This document shows positions 51,681 to 57,550 of a stretch of DNA of 64,000 nt, piece by piece. Each line of letters begins with the position of its first letter. Position 1 is the first letter of the stretch. The DNA lies in assembly GCA_024637145.1 (NCBI GenBank), contig JAGXFQ010000030.1, positions 43,873 through 107,872 on the forward strand. The letters are read 5' to 3'. The translations under genes were made by a program, and so were the position numbers. Source of the stretch: Desulfobulbaceae bacterium (GTDB lineage: Bacteria; Desulfobacterota; Desulfobulbia; Desulfobulbales; SURF-16). The notes beneath the pieces are model-generated. The model was not told where the DNA came from. It ran no database searches and was given only the letters and a program-made list of their open reading frames with translations.

Positions 51681-51693
51681 ATACCTAAGGTAT
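51681..51693 (+). promoter_or_regulatory. Operator-like palindrome before arsR-type gene
   Basis: ATACCT-A-AGGTAT, perfect 6-bp arms around one base, ending four bases before the start codon and covering the ribosome-binding region. ArsR-family repressors often bind such palindromes in their own promoter region; autoregulation is inference. Confidence 0.5.
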
Positions 51694-51697
51694 CATT

Positions 51698-51994
51698 TTG
51701 GAAAACGATCAGATTGCCTCCATTGCCGGCATGTTGAAAACCATGGCGCACCCCATTCGGCTCAAGATCCTTTGCCTTCTCCAGGACAGGGAAATGACTG
51801 TCGGCGATATCAGGGAAGAGGTCAAGACCACCAACGCCAATGTCTCCCAACACCTTTCCATCCTGCGCAACCAGGGCATTATCGACTACCGGAAAGATGC
51901 CAATTTCATCTACAATCGGATCAATGATACCCGCGTCCTGGAGTTGATGCAGATCATGCATAAACTCTACTGTGAGGAGCGCGTTCCCGCCTAA
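51698..51994 (+). CDS. ArsR-family transcriptional regulator
   Basis: 98 residues of winged-helix fold: MAHPIRLKILCLLQDREMTVGDI then the recognition helix in NANVSQHLSILRNQGII and the wing YRKDANFIYNRI. The metal-binding ELCVCD motif is absent: the aligned stretch reads NANVSQHLS, so it is probably not a metal sensor; redox or small-molecule sensing is open. One cysteine (ILCLL) and another near the C-terminus (LYCEE) remain. The start is TTG at 51698. It heads the RND-LolA-barrel operon. Confidence 0.85.
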   Translation: MENDQIASIAGMLKTMAHPIRLKILCLLQDREMTVGDIREEVKTTNANVSQHLSILRNQGIIDYRKDANFIYNRINDTRVLELMQIMHKLYCEERVPA

Positions 51995-52134
51995 AAGAGT
52001 ACAAGAGAGCGGCCTTGTCATGCCTCATAGGCCCTGTTGACAACCGCCATACCGCCTCCCCTTCCGGGACGCGTCTCCCCGAGCTTGCCTCCCCCCCCTA
52101 TTTGCCGGCCCAGCCGATTCCAGGAAGAGCAATC

Positions 52135-54741
52135 ATGAACCATGGCAGCAGACTCGTCCAGACCTCCATCTTGAGACCAAAACTGATCACCACCCTCATG
52201 GTGCTCTTTACCCTGGCCCTGGCCGCCTTCATCCCCCAGGTCCATGTTGACACTGATCCGGAAAACATGCTCGCCGAGGATGAAGCGGTCCGACTCTTTC
52301 ACACCAATACCAAAAAGGAATTTGCCCTCCATGACCTCCTTATTGTCGGGGTGGTCAATGAAAAGCATGAGCACGGCGTCTTCAACCCCGAGACCCTGGG
52401 CCATGTCTTTGCCCTCACGGAATTTGCCGCCAGCCTCTCTGACCCGGACAACCCCGACTACAAGGTGGTTGCCCGGGATATCATCGCCCCTTCCACGGTT
52501 GATGCCATTACCCAGGCCGGCCCGGGGCAGGTGAGCTTTGACTGGCTCATGGCCGCACCGCCCACCAGCCAGGAAGAGGCCCTGCGGATCCGCGATCTGG
52601 CCATGGACAACCCCCTTCTCAAGGGCACCCTGGTGGCTGAAGACGGCAAGGCCGTGGGTATCTATCTGCCCATCACCTCAAAAAAATTCGCCCATACCCT
52701 GAGCCAGCAACTTGAAGAAAAAATCGCCACCTTCAACACCAACGGTGACAAATTCTTCATCACCGGCCTGCCCGTGGCAGAAGACACCTTTGGCAATGAG
52801 ATGTTCATCCAGATGGCCATCTCCGCCCCCCTGGCCATGCTGGTCATCTTCCTGCTCATGCTCTATTTTTTCCGACAGTTCCGTCTCATCATCTCCCCCA
52901 TGATCGTTGCCATGGTGACCGTGATTTCCACCATGGGCCTGCTCATCGGCACGGGCCATACCCTGCACATCATGAGCTCCATGATCCCCATCTTTCTCAT
53001 GCCCATTGCCGTGGTGGATTCCATCCATATCATGAGCGAATTCTTTGATGAATATAAAAAGATAGGGGAGCGGCGCAAGACCCTGGAGCATGTGATGAGC
53101 CAACTCTTCACCCCCATGCTCTACACCTCGCTCACCTCGGCGGCCGGTTTCGCCTCCCTGGCCTTCACCCCCATTCCGCCGGTGCAGGCCTTTGGTATCT
53201 TTGTGGCCATCGGCATCATGATCGCCTGGCTCACCACCATCCTTTTCATCCCGGCCTATATCATGCTGATGCCGGAATCGAGCCTGCGCAATTTCGGGGT
53301 CAAAGAGAAGAGCGACCTTGCCGTCAACAATACGGCTCTGGCCCGCGCCCTCCGCCCCTTAGGCATTTTTGTCCACCGCTGGCCCAAGATCATCATCAGC
53401 GTCTGCCTGCTGCTCACCCTGGTGGCCTTGTACGGAATCAGCAAGATCCAGGTGAACGACAACCCGGTGAACTGGTTCACCAAGAACCACCAGATCCGGG
53501 TGGCTGACCGCGTGCTCAACAACCATTTCAGCGGCACCTATGAGGCCTACCTGATCCTGGAATCAAAGCTGGCACCGCTTTCGCCGGCCCAGGCCCAACA
53601 GGAGCTGGCCATTCTCTTCAGGGACCAGGCCCTGGATGCCACCAGCAAGGCCGTGGTGGCCAAGGCCCTGGCCATTTTAACCAGAACGGCCCAGCAGGGC
53701 TCCACCGAGGCCATGCTCGCCCTTCTGGAGGCAGACCTGCTGGAGAGCCAGGCCGTAGCCGATGACCCCTCCTATGAGGTGTGGGCCGATCTCCTTGCCC
53801 AGATCGACATTCTACGCAACCGCAGCCAGATTTTCAAAAGGCCCGACGTCCTCCGTTATATCGAAGGGCTCCAGGCGCACCTCCTCAACAGCGGCCTGGT
53901 GGGCAAGAGCAGCTCCATAGCCGATCTGACCAAAAAGATTCACAAGGAGCTCTTTGAAGCAGATCCAGGCCATTACACCATCCCCGACAGCGTCGGCGGG
54001 GTGGCCCAGTCTCTCATCTCCTTTCAAAACAGTCATAAGCCGGGCGACCTCTATCATCTGGTCACTCCGGACTACCAGAAGGCAAATATCTGGGTCCAGC
54101 TCCAAAACGGCGACAACAAGGCCATGGAGGCCGTGGTCAGAGCGGTGCGAATCTACATGATAGGGCACCCGCCACCGGTGCAGATCAGCCATAAGTGGGC
54201 CGGACTCACCTACCTTAATGTGGTCTGGCAGGACAAAATGGTTTCCGGCATGCGCGATGCCTTCCTGTCGAGCTTTATCATCGTCTTTGTCATGATGATG
54301 ATTCTCTTCCGCTCACCCACCTGGGGCCTGCTGGCCATGGTGCCGCTGACCATGACCATTGCCTGGATCTACGGCATTATCGGCTTTGTCGGCAAGGAGT
54401 ATGACATGCCGGTGGCAGTGCTATCGTCGCTCACCCTGGGGCTGGCCGTGGATTTCGCCATCCATTTCCTGCAACGCGCCCGGACTATCTTTACCAGAAC
54501 CGGCTCCTGGCACGCGACCATCACAGCCATGTTCGAGGAACCGGGCCGGGCCATCAGCCGCAACGTCATCGTCATTGCCCTGGGCTTTACCCCCCTGCTG
54601 CTGGCGCCGCTGGTGCCCTATAAGACGGTGGGCATCTTCCTGGCCTCCATCATGGCCATCTCCGGCCTGGCAACCATGGTTATCCTGCCCGCTCTGATCA
54701 CCATCATGCAGGGCTGGCTCTTTGGCAAGACCAACTCATAA
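52135..54741 (+). CDS. RND/MMPL superfamily transporter
   Basis: 868 residues from ATG 52135 (AGGA upstream), inner membrane. Topology is RND-like: one N-terminal segment, a periplasmic domain, a six-helix bundle (from about 220; VVDSIHIMSEFFDEYKK carries the charged helix motif), a second segment and larger periplasmic domain, then the second bundle (LGLAVDFAIHFLQRAR). Each bundle keeps an acidic residue in the fourth-helix position, so it is likely proton-driven. This size and form resembles HpnN/MmpL-type lipid exporters more than AcrB. The track ORF from 52015 adds out-of-family residues. Confidence 0.9.
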   Translation: MNHGSRLVQTSILRPKLITTLMVLFTLALAAFIPQVHVDTDPENMLAEDEAVRLFHTNTKKEFALHDLLIVGVVNEKHEHGVFNPETLGHVFALTEFAASLSDPDNPDYKVVARDIIAPSTVDAITQAGPGQVSFDWLMAAPPTSQEEALRIRDLAMDNPLLKGTLVAEDGKAVGIYLPITSKKFAHTLSQQLEEKIATFNTNGDKFFITGLPVAEDTFGNEMFIQMAISAPLAMLVIFLLMLYFFRQFRLIISPMIVAMVTVISTMGLLIGTGHTLHIMSSMIPIFLMPIAVVDSIHIMSEFFDEYKKIGERRKTLEHVMSQLFTPMLYTSLTSAAGFASLAFTPIPPVQAFGIFVAIGIMIAWLTTILFIPAYIMLMPESSLRNFGVKEKSDLAVNNTALARALRPLGIFVHRWPKIIISVCLLLTLVALYGISKIQVNDNPVNWFTKNHQIRVADRVLNNHFSGTYEAYLILESKLAPLSPAQAQQELAILFRDQALDATSKAVVAKALAILTRTAQQGSTEAMLALLEADLLESQAVADDPSYEVWADLLAQIDILRNRSQIFKRPDVLRYIEGLQAHLLNSGLVGKSSSIADLTKKIHKELFEADPGHYTIPDSVGGVAQSLISFQNSHKPGDLYHLVTPDYQKANIWVQLQNGDNKAMEAVVRAVRIYMIGHPPPVQISHKWAGLTYLNVVWQDKMVSGMRDAFLSSFIIVFVMMMILFRSPTWGLLAMVPLTMTIAWIYGIIGFVGKEYDMPVAVLSSLTLGLAVDFAIHFLQRARTIFTRTGSWHATITAMFEEPGRAISRNVIVIALGFTPLLLAPLVPYKTVGIFLASIMAISGLATMVILPALITIMQGWLFGKTNS

Positions 54742-54768
54742 ACACCGTGATTTACGGAGGATACTCCC

Positions 54769-55557
54769 ATGCGCCCCAAGAACCTCTTTCCTCTTCTGCT
54801 CCTGAGCGCCCTGCTGGCCGGCCCTGCCCTGGCGGCCCCGGACCTTGATGACATCATCAGCCAGGCCAACAATGTCGCCTATTACAGCGGCGATGACGGC
54901 CGCGCTGATGTGGCCATGACCATCCTCGACAATCAGAGCCGCACCAGGGAGCGCCTCTTCACCATCCTCCGCAAGGATATTGAGGAGGGCGGCGACCAGC
55001 TCTACTTCGTCTATTTCAAACGGCCCAGCGATGTCCGCAAAACCACCTTCCTGGTCCATAAGTATATGGACCGGGATGATGATCGCTGGATGTATCTGCC
55101 GAGTCTCGATTTGGTGAAGCGTATTGCCGCTTCTGACCAGCGCACCAGCTTCATGGGCTCCCATTTTTTCCATGAGGATCTCTCCGGCCGCCACCTGGAT
55201 GCCGACCACCATGCGCTGCTTGAGGAGAACGACACCTTCTATGTCATCAAGAACATCCCCAAGGAGCCGGCCGACGTCGAGTTTGCCTCCTACACCGTCT
55301 GGATCGACAAGAAGAACTTCCTGCCCATGAAGGCGGAGTACCTTGACAAAAGCGGCGCCCTCTACCGCACCATGGAGGTGCTGGAGGTGGCGACCATTGC
55401 AGGCTACCCCACGGTGCTTAAATCAAGGATCAGCGACCTGGAGGCAGGCGGCAGCACCGTAACCCGGTTCAGCAATGTCAAATATAACCTGGGTCTGGAC
55501 GACAATCTCTTTTCCGAGCGCTACCTGCGGCGTCCCCCCAGAGAGGCCCGCCAGTAA
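54769..55557 (+). CDS. Periplasmic LolA-like protein (outer membrane lipoprotein-sorting type)
   Basis: 262 residues. Signal peptide ending near ALAAPD, then a LolA-like half-barrel fold (RLFTILRKDIEEGGDQLYFVYF, VRKTTFLVHKY, RWMYLPSLDLVKRIAASDQ, FMGSHFFHEDL). It is of the PF17131 type that co-occurs with MMPL/RND exporters, not the classical LolA of the Lol system. It would carry a hydrophobic molecule across the periplasm. It starts 27 bp after the RND gene and 2 bp before the barrel gene. Confidence 0.85.
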   Translation: MRPKNLFPLLLLSALLAGPALAAPDLDDIISQANNVAYYSGDDGRADVAMTILDNQSRTRERLFTILRKDIEEGGDQLYFVYFKRPSDVRKTTFLVHKYMDRDDDRWMYLPSLDLVKRIAASDQRTSFMGSHFFHEDLSGRHLDADHHALLEENDTFYVIKNIPKEPADVEFASYTVWIDKKNFLPMKAEYLDKSGALYRTMEVLEVATIAGYPTVLKSRISDLEAGGSTVTRFSNVKYNLGLDDNLFSERYLRRPPREARQ

Positions 55558-55559
55558 CC

Positions 55560-56849
55560 ATGATGAAGCCCCGGCGCTTAAACCTGCTCCTTCTCCCCGG
55601 CCTGCTGCTCCTCCTGGCCCTGCCGGCTCAGGGGGCCATGGACCAGCTCAGGGAGCGCCTCTATGCGGATTACGGCCTGGACCTCACCGGCTTCGTGGAG
55701 ACCAGGGCCGGCCTGCGCACCCAGAACGACGACTATGCGGACGATCTCACCCTGGCCGAGGCCCGGCTGCAACTCCATCTGAGCAAGGATTTGGGCTGGG
55801 GCATCTTCAAGGCCAAGGGCGACCTGCTGGCTGACGGGGTGGTTGACCGCGTCAGCGGCCGGCTGCGGGACCTCAACCTGCTCTTCTTTCCTGCCCACAA
55901 CATAGACATGAAGATCGGCCGCCAGGTCTTGACCTGGGGCACCGGCGACCTCCTCTTTATCAACGATTTCTTTGCCAAGGACTGGCAAGCCTTTTTCATC
56001 GGCCGCGATGACGAATATCTGAAGGCGCCAAGCAATGCCCTCAAGTCCAGTATTTTTTTTGAGCTGATCAACATCGACCTGGTCTATATCCCGGTCTTTG
56101 AGGGTTCCGCCCACATCAGCGGCGAACGGCTCTCTTACTGGAACGGCGTCCTGGGCCGGACCGCCGGCAACGACTTTATCTTTGACCTGGAAGAACGAAA
56201 CAGTGCCGGCCAGGACAGCGAATATGCCGTGCGCCTCTCCCGCCATATCTCCTCCATGGAGGTGGCCCTTTATGGGTATAACGGCTTCTGGCAGACCCCG
56301 GAGGGCATGGTGGTGCCTGCCATGCAGCTGCGCTATCCGCGTCTCCAGATCTATGGGGCCTCCCTGCGCAACCCCATCTGGGGCGGCATCGGCAATATCG
56401 AGACCGGCTACTACCATTCCAGCCAGGCCGACCATGGCCGCGACCCCCTGACCAGAAACAGCGAATACCGTCTGCTCCTGGGCTTTGAACGGGAGATCGG
56501 CCACAACTTCACCGCTGCCGGCCAGGCATACCTGGAATGGCTGATGGATTATGAGGAGTATAAAGAAACCCTCAGCCCGGGAACCCCGGCCAAGGACGAG
56601 TATCGCCAGGTGGTCACCCTGCGCCTCACCAAATTACTAATGAACCAGAACCTGATCCTCTCCCTGTTCACCTACTACTCGCCCACGGATAAGGATGGCT
56701 ATATCAGACCCAAGGTTCAGTACAAACTCACGGATCAATGGCTCCTGGAAGGCGGCGGCAACATCTTCTTCGGCGCCGACAACCACACCTTCTTCGGCCA
56801 GTTTCAAGATAACACCAATGTCTATGGGGGGGTGCGTTGGAGTTTTTAG
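55560..56849 (+). CDS. Outer-membrane beta-barrel protein (DUF1302-like)
   Basis: 429 residues. Signal peptide LLLLALPAQGA, then an N-terminal helical piece and about 16 beta strands, ending VYGGVRWSF with the terminal phenylalanine of BAM substrates. It resembles DUF1302-type barrels that occur beside RND exporters and LolA-like proteins. It lies 2 bp after the LolA-like gene and completes an inner-membrane/periplasm/outer-membrane set. The substrate is unknown. Its stop is directly followed by a tandem repeat. Confidence 0.78.
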   Translation: MMKPRRLNLLLLPGLLLLLALPAQGAMDQLRERLYADYGLDLTGFVETRAGLRTQNDDYADDLTLAEARLQLHLSKDLGWGIFKAKGDLLADGVVDRVSGRLRDLNLLFFPAHNIDMKIGRQVLTWGTGDLLFINDFFAKDWQAFFIGRDDEYLKAPSNALKSSIFFELINIDLVYIPVFEGSAHISGERLSYWNGVLGRTAGNDFIFDLEERNSAGQDSEYAVRLSRHISSMEVALYGYNGFWQTPEGMVVPAMQLRYPRLQIYGASLRNPIWGGIGNIETGYYHSSQADHGRDPLTRNSEYRLLLGFEREIGHNFTAAGQAYLEWLMDYEEYKETLSPGTPAKDEYRQVVTLRLTKLLMNQNLILSLFTYYSPTDKDGYIRPKVQYKLTDQWLLEGGGNIFFGADNHTFFGQFQDNTNVYGGVRWSF

Positions 56850-56851
56850 AG

Positions 56852-57160
56852 CCTCTGGAGGCGAAAACACCCCAGAAGTTCTCGCCAACGCCGGCGGTGA
56901 AACACCTAAAGAAGCGCAGCGAACCGTAGAGGCTCTTATACCCGAAGGGTGTTAGAGAGGCTTCCTCTGGAGGCGAAAACACCCCAAAAGCCCTCGCCAG
57001 CGCCGGCGGCGAAACACTAAAGAAGCGCAGCGAACCGTAGAGGCTCTTATACCCGAAGGGTGTTAGAGAGACTTCCTCTGGTGGCGAAAACACCAAAAAA
57101 GCCCTCAGCTGTCCCCCCGGCCAAACACCCGCAGAAGCTTATCGAACCGCAGCGACTTCT
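56852..57160 (+). repeat. Tandem ~111-bp repeat, 2.8 copies
   Basis: Units start with CCTCTGGAGGCGAAAACACC at 56852 and 56964 and the variant CCTCTGGTGGCGAAAACACC at 57075 (periods 112 and 111). Units 1 and 2 are nearly identical; unit 3 diverges after about 25 bp, with AAGCTTATCGAACCGCAGCG still recognisable. Each of the first two includes ATACCCGAAGGGTGTTA, a small hairpin. It starts two bases after the barrel gene stop. The minus strand reads an open frame through it, which I judge an artefact. 57161-57331 has no gene. Confidence 0.9.
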
Positions 57161-57331: not shown

Positions 57332-57550
57332 ATGATTATTACTGACTGGGTCCGTGCCATTGCCGGCCTTTTCATCCTCATTTCCCTGACCCTGGGAGTT
57401 GAGGCCAGCCCCCTTTTCGTCCATAAATATTGGCTCTTTTTCACCGCCTTTGTAGGCGCCAACCTCCTGCAATCAGGATTCAGCAAGTTCTGCCCCTTGG
57501 CAATGATCCTGAAGGCCCTGGGGGTGCCGGAGAGTAGAAAGGGCTTTTGA
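57332..57550 (+). CDS. DUF2892 family small membrane protein
   Basis: 72 residues, two membrane segments ([32 protein letters not shown]) and the family ending [16 protein letters not shown]2892 corresponds to the membrane part of YgaP-like rhodanese proteins; here no rhodanese domain is attached. The cysteine in FCPLA is family-typical. AAGGAG lies six bases before the ATG. It could take part in sulfur-compound handling, which is inference. Confidence 0.85.

Follow-up and report, generated by a model that had tools for sequence, protein, structure and literature searches.

A candidate reactive-sulfur-responsive RND, LolA-like and outer-membrane barrel cassette with a dithiol ArsR regulator and a YgaP-like protein in Desulfobulbaceae

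Described relatives and the genes of the cassette

Cassettes that combine an HAE3-type RND transporter with a LolA-like protein and an outer-membrane barrel are widespread in bacteria, and their signal and substrate are mostly without assignment. AmeABCD of Castellaniella defragrans (PMC6394551) brings together an HAE3 RND protein, a LolA-superfamily periplasmic protein and a DUF1302-type outer-membrane protein in one cluster. The TOL_3187/TOL_3188 system of Thalassolituus (PMC6304351) is comparable in its part composition, with MMPL and LolA-like parts and an adjacent porin-like protein, but there the RND and LolA-like domains are fused. The HpnN and BstA lipid transporters share the RND fold and, by the proposal made here, a hydrophobic cargo directed to the outer membrane. 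Sulfane-sulfur ArsR proteins have already been linked in general terms with RND pumps (PMC12423496), which limits the novelty of finding such genes side by side; neither the five-part cassette nor its swap with a classical efflux pump was found in the literature that we searched.

The window, by which we mean the whole 64,000-nucleotide stretch of a Desulfobulbaceae contig (JAGXFQ010000030.1) that was analysed, contains such a cassette (Table 1). The earlier note had described a four-gene unit consisting of an ArsR regulator, an RND exporter, a LolA-like protein and a barrel. All four genes were confirmed in place by open reading frames and family searches, with profile matches to HTH_5, MMPL and PF17131 and a sub-threshold match to DUF1302, but a fifth member encoding a YgaP-like transmembrane protein had been missed. 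Intergenic gaps of 140 bp (ArsR to RND), 27 bp (RND to LolA-like) and 2 bp (LolA-like to barrel) place the last three of the four genes in a tight array, as had been stated. A longer reading frame from 52015 represents an upstream extension of the RND gene. The barrel and YgaP-like genes are separated by 482 bp containing a 111-bp tandem repeat, of which no other copy was found across the organism's own genome.

Table 1. Cassette genes and neighbouring features, in window coordinates
Feature	Position	Strand	Remarks
Perfect palindrome ATACCTAAGGTAT before ArsR	51681..51693	.	Present; probably not an operator
ArsR-family regulator (A)	51698..51994	+	98 aa, TTG start, dithiol pair C26/C92
HAE3/MMPL-type RND transporter (R)	52135..54741	+	868 aa from ATG 52135
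LolA-like periplasmic protein (L)	54769..55557	+	262 aa, apparent signal peptide
Outer-membrane beta-barrel (B), distant DUF1302	55560..56849	+	429 aa, ~18 strands in model
111-bp tandem repeat	56852..57106		2.3 copies, between barrel and YgaP-like gene
YgaP-like transmembrane protein (PF11127/DUF2892) (D)	57332..57550	+	72 aa, AAAGGAG ribosome-binding site

Several features set this locus apart from AmeABCD. Its LolA-like protein has PF17131 as its main family whereas AmeB is a DUF1329 protein, no gene resembling the fourth, periplasmic protein AmeC is apparent among the cassette genes, the barrel scores below the DUF1302 threshold, and the cassette is linked with a YgaP-like protein and often also with a dithiol ArsR. 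With moderate confidence, we read these five genes as a reactive-sulfur-responsive, proton-driven HAE3-type exporter that would carry hydrophobic molecules across both membranes. The association with a predicted reactive-sulfur sensor and with a YgaP-like protein, which recurs in several phyla and arrangements, makes both the signal and the substrate of the cassette directly testable.

Transporter, carrier and barrel

The RND protein matches MMPL (PF03176, 2.2e-28), and its best NCBIfam match is HAE3 (TIGR00921) at 170.9 bits, under the curated cut-off of 351.9, so the protein is described here as HAE3-like only. Scores against HpnN (TIGR03480; 96.6 bits, cut-off 751.85) and BstA (20.6 bits, cut-off 1400) led us to reject membership of either family; of the MMPL/HpnN-type exporter that had been suggested, the MMPL assignment holds, while the HpnN label applies to the fold only. 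The AF2 model of the transporter (pLDDT 87) matches the folds of transporters for lipids or siderophores, namely MmpL4/MmpL5, NPC1-type proteins and HpnN. Relatives of the HAE3/MmpL type are exporters. D773 is found in 38 of 38 orthologues and D295 in 34 of 38, as would fit proton coupling through TM10 and TM4. The second periplasmic loop varies greatly among orthologues (for example in G134, G231, G070 and G126), whose open frames range from ~770 to 1200 residues.

The PF17131 identity of the LolA-like protein is borne out by a match of 5e-58 and 196.2 bits, over the gathering cut-off of 30, and its PDB matches are 9tp6, 4z48 and 3bk5. The LolA-superfamily part of the cassette also reaches 31.9 bits against DUF1329 (cut-off 23.1). 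A second PF17131 LolA-like gene in the same genome (L033, 7134-7856 on contig C10) lies near a MacB/FtsX-type gene with no RND gene and was rejected as a cassette part.

For the barrel, the DUF1302 (PF06980) match of 8.5e-4 and 18.9 bits falls under the gathering cut-off of 23.2, and a sequence profile found no match in the PDB. Its AF2 model (pLDDT 91.2, pTM 0.85) is matched by Foldseek to OmpM1, MOMP, chitoporin and AlgE, with the general porins and AlgE at TM ~0.5. The predicted fold is thus that of an outer-membrane barrel, as the earlier note had it, although the DUF1302-like label it used lies below threshold. Together, the collinear R, L and B genes, the barrel model and the RND fold support the idea of an inner-membrane, periplasmic and outer-membrane unit that probably handles a hydrophobic substrate.

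The ArsR regulator, its upstream region and the YgaP-like partner

The regulator matches HTH_5 at 4.7e-16 in a Pfam profile search, and its best PDB matches are HlyU (6.4e-18) and the biofilm growth-associated repressor BigR (3.9e-16). In common with the sensors SqrR, BigR, HlyU and YgaV, it has an ArsR fold with two cysteines in the alpha2/alpha5 positions, and it is accompanied by a YgaP-like partner as in ygaVP. Unlike them, it scores under the BigR equivalog cut-off (NF040642; 75.1 bits, cut-off 155), its neighbours form a transport cassette, and no SqrR-type ATTC-N8-GAAT operator was found with up to one mismatch between 44371 and 53263. When aligned to HlyU, C26 and C92 lie 66 residues apart, which is also the spacing of the HlyU pair C38/C104 (PMC10509353) and of the sHdrR pair C50/C116 (PMC12423496); the YgaV pair C31/C98 is spaced by 67 (PMC9774250). 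Both cysteines are invariant in the alignment of order orthologues (43/43), and both are present in the ArsR protein that adjoins the same transporter at 10 loci of Alpha- and Gammaproteobacteria. The protein had been called a metal-motif-free ArsR; the family was correct, but the description passed over the invariant dithiol pair. Because this pair is that of reactive-sulfur sensors (PMC9774250, PMC10509353), a signal can be predicted, and the regulator probably senses reactive sulfur species (RSS). A protein named 'SqrR' in P. putida was considered as a further comparison and set aside, as it concerns a putative sigma-54-dependent regulator with no bearing here (PMC10128140).

The dithiol pair is not universal to the cassette, since most ArsR proteins at Planctomycetota cassettes have E or D at position 26. 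In a number of these (L160, L163, L166, L172, L173, L176, L178, L179, L181, L198 and L200) the first cysteine is absent and a C-x4-C pair lies near the C-terminus, possibly forming another thiol sensor.

Upstream of the regulator, the earlier note had proposed a sigma70-like promoter and a palindrome. The promoter was rejected, as the number of sigma70-like sites (5 observed, 2.9 +/- 1.5 in shuffles) is near chance. The palindrome ATACCTAAGGTAT exists, but a regulatory role for it is unsupported: it is one of 32 perfect 6+1+6 palindromes in the window, it overlaps the AAGG ribosome-binding site of ArsR, and its absence from three aligned congeners (L104, L105 and L108) led us to discard it as an operator. 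No conserved palindrome was found upstream of ArsR. A different element, CTTTACA...ATTAAATTAAA, precedes ArsR in conserved form in much of the order and is degenerate in the window.

The YgaP-like protein scores 39.6 bits against PF11127, over the gathering cut-off of 25.3, and its gene is linked to the cassette in 31 of the 50 full-flank loci defined below, in several arrangements. Genomes carry between one and three PF11127 copies (nine genomes checked), and G195, G240 and G247 each yielded a single copy, which adjoins the cassette. Where the transporter is absent, the YgaP-like gene usually adjoins the ArsR gene. Rhodanese genes were also sought in the cassette, with only occasional ones found nearby.

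Gene neighbourhoods, exchange in the slot and possible cargo

Our neighbourhood sample comprised 80 loci from GTDB genomes of Desulfobacterota, Planctomycetota, Alpha- and Gammaproteobacteria and others, 50 of them with full flanks. Far from rarely occurring together, the outcome named in advance as counting against the unit, R, L and B are collinear in 46 of the 50 full-flank loci across several phyla, with L beside R in 49 and B in 46. The conservation across Desulfobacterota that had been suggested as a check was likewise found: among 40 relative loci of the phylum, nearly all whose contig allows it keep the order R-L-B. An ArsR-family gene lies no more than 1 kb upstream in 28/50 full-flank loci, R-L-B stands without either ArsR or YgaP-like partner in 13/50, and some cassette loci have MarR-type regulators. 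With the letters of Table 1, and a for a divergent ArsR, the four main arrangements are ARLBD, ARDLB, aDRLB and aRLBD. Pairs of loci with similar R proteins tend also to have similar L (r 0.83 for pairwise identities) and B (r 0.80) proteins, the loci being non-independent samples. In the window's own order, 18 of 19 assessable genomes have ArsR no more than ~520 bp from R, and in G240 the distance is 7 kb. This adjacency could be one inherited event within the order; simple hitch-hiking is argued against because the arrangement changes between groups.

These linkages, together with the dithiol pair, suggest how the cassette may operate. A rise in persulfides or polysulfides would bridge C26 and C92 of ArsR, which probably represses its neighbours, and the bridged SqrR/BigR/YgaV-like repressor would leave its operator and allow the cassette to be expressed. 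Driven by the proton gradient, the RND protein would then take a hydrophobic molecule out of the inner membrane or the periplasm and pass it to the LolA-like protein, and this carrier would in turn deliver the molecule to the barrel. Our confidence declines from the switch to the direction of transport and from there to the substrate, which we would guess to be either a lipid that reactive sulfur has damaged or a sulfane-sulfur compound, meaning polysulfane or elemental sulfur. The narrower version, a dedicated RSS-induced trans-envelope exporter, controlled through ArsR, of zero-valent sulfur (polysulfane/elemental sulfur) or sulfane-sulfur-loaded lipids, seems unlikely to us; if true, it could explain how hydrophobic sulfur leaves bacterial cells.

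A cargo free of any sulfur link is also conceivable, with the cassette acting as an HpnN/AmeABCD-like lipid- or hydrocarbon-trafficking unit for envelope lipids and ArsR as an unrelated neighbour kept by synteny. The regulator is an order-wide orthologue (60-89% identity in ~44/58 relatives) that in most order genomes comes after genes for a polyprenyl synthase, a deacetylase and a SAM hydrolase, and it keeps this position even in genomes without R. The RND fold resembles those of MmpL, NPC1 and HpnN, AmeABCD handles monoterpenes (PMC6394551), and the Thalassolituus RND-LolA fusion and its adjacent porin are induced by an n-C28 alkane (PMC6304351), which by analogy points to hydrocarbons or lipids as cargo. 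We nevertheless regard the absence of a sulfur connection as somewhat doubtful, because dithiol ArsR and YgaP-like genes recur at R-L-B in Alpha- and Gammaproteobacteria in another arrangement, and because sulfur-related neighbours occur: sulfide:quinone-oxidoreductase (SQR)-like genes near the cassette in 6 loci and DUF302 genes in 13. Among five SQR-like proteins scanned, that of L211 scores over the cut-off of the type III SQR model and the other four match the model below it. For the window organism itself no argument from SQR is made, since a search of its own genome gave weak matches only.

The reading of the cassette as a reactive-sulfur-responsive exporter draws its direction mainly from what replaces the transporter in related genomes. 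L134 and L142 lack R; downstream of ArsR they carry an OEP/HlyD/ACR_tran operon and, after it, the YgaP-like gene, the L142 copy of which was missed by Pfam and detected by a purpose-built profile. HAE1 RND/MFP/TolC efflux pumps thus occupy the same slot between ArsR and the YgaP-like gene in two related genomes, although their periplasmic and outer-membrane parts are non-homologous to those of the cassette. Since a classical tripartite efflux pump exchanges into this slot, we infer that the cassette exports. The same replacement by a TolC/MFP/AcrB-type pump would also suit a general detoxification pump, for which reactive sulfur would serve just as a warning signal and which would expel hydrophobic toxins or drugs of various kinds; in E. 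coli, tolerance to antibiotics is affected by YgaV (PMC9774250), and Li et al. described RND pumps in the neighbourhood of ArsR genes that respond to sulfane sulfur (PMC12423496). The RND, LolA-like and barrel proteins are highly conserved, with mean column identities of 51-55%, which suggests a defined substrate instead, and we consider so broad a role improbable. The reverse direction, in which the barrel and LolA-like protein would bring a hydrophobic compound inward for the RND protein to act on at the inner membrane, could draw on the barrel's matches to general porins and on the interpretation of the Thalassolituus system as a passage for alkanes into the cell (PMC6304351). With HAE3/MmpL relatives exporting (PMC6394551) and an HAE1 efflux pump taking the place of the cassette transporter, import appears very improbable.

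Other genomes of the order without R show further contents of the slot. The YgaP-like gene directly follows ArsR in eight of them, and in L109 a LolA-like gene and then a YgaP-like gene come after ArsR. TolC/MFP/AcrB-type pump genes also lie directly downstream of the same ArsR in L121 and L143, and in L135, L137 and L139 the gene after ArsR resembles, by eye, ATP sulfurylase/APS kinase. In L114, L115, L117 and L120 the contig breaks off 270-470 bp past ArsR, at the place expected for the start of R, and the stretch after ArsR in L115 still holds a YgaP-like gene.
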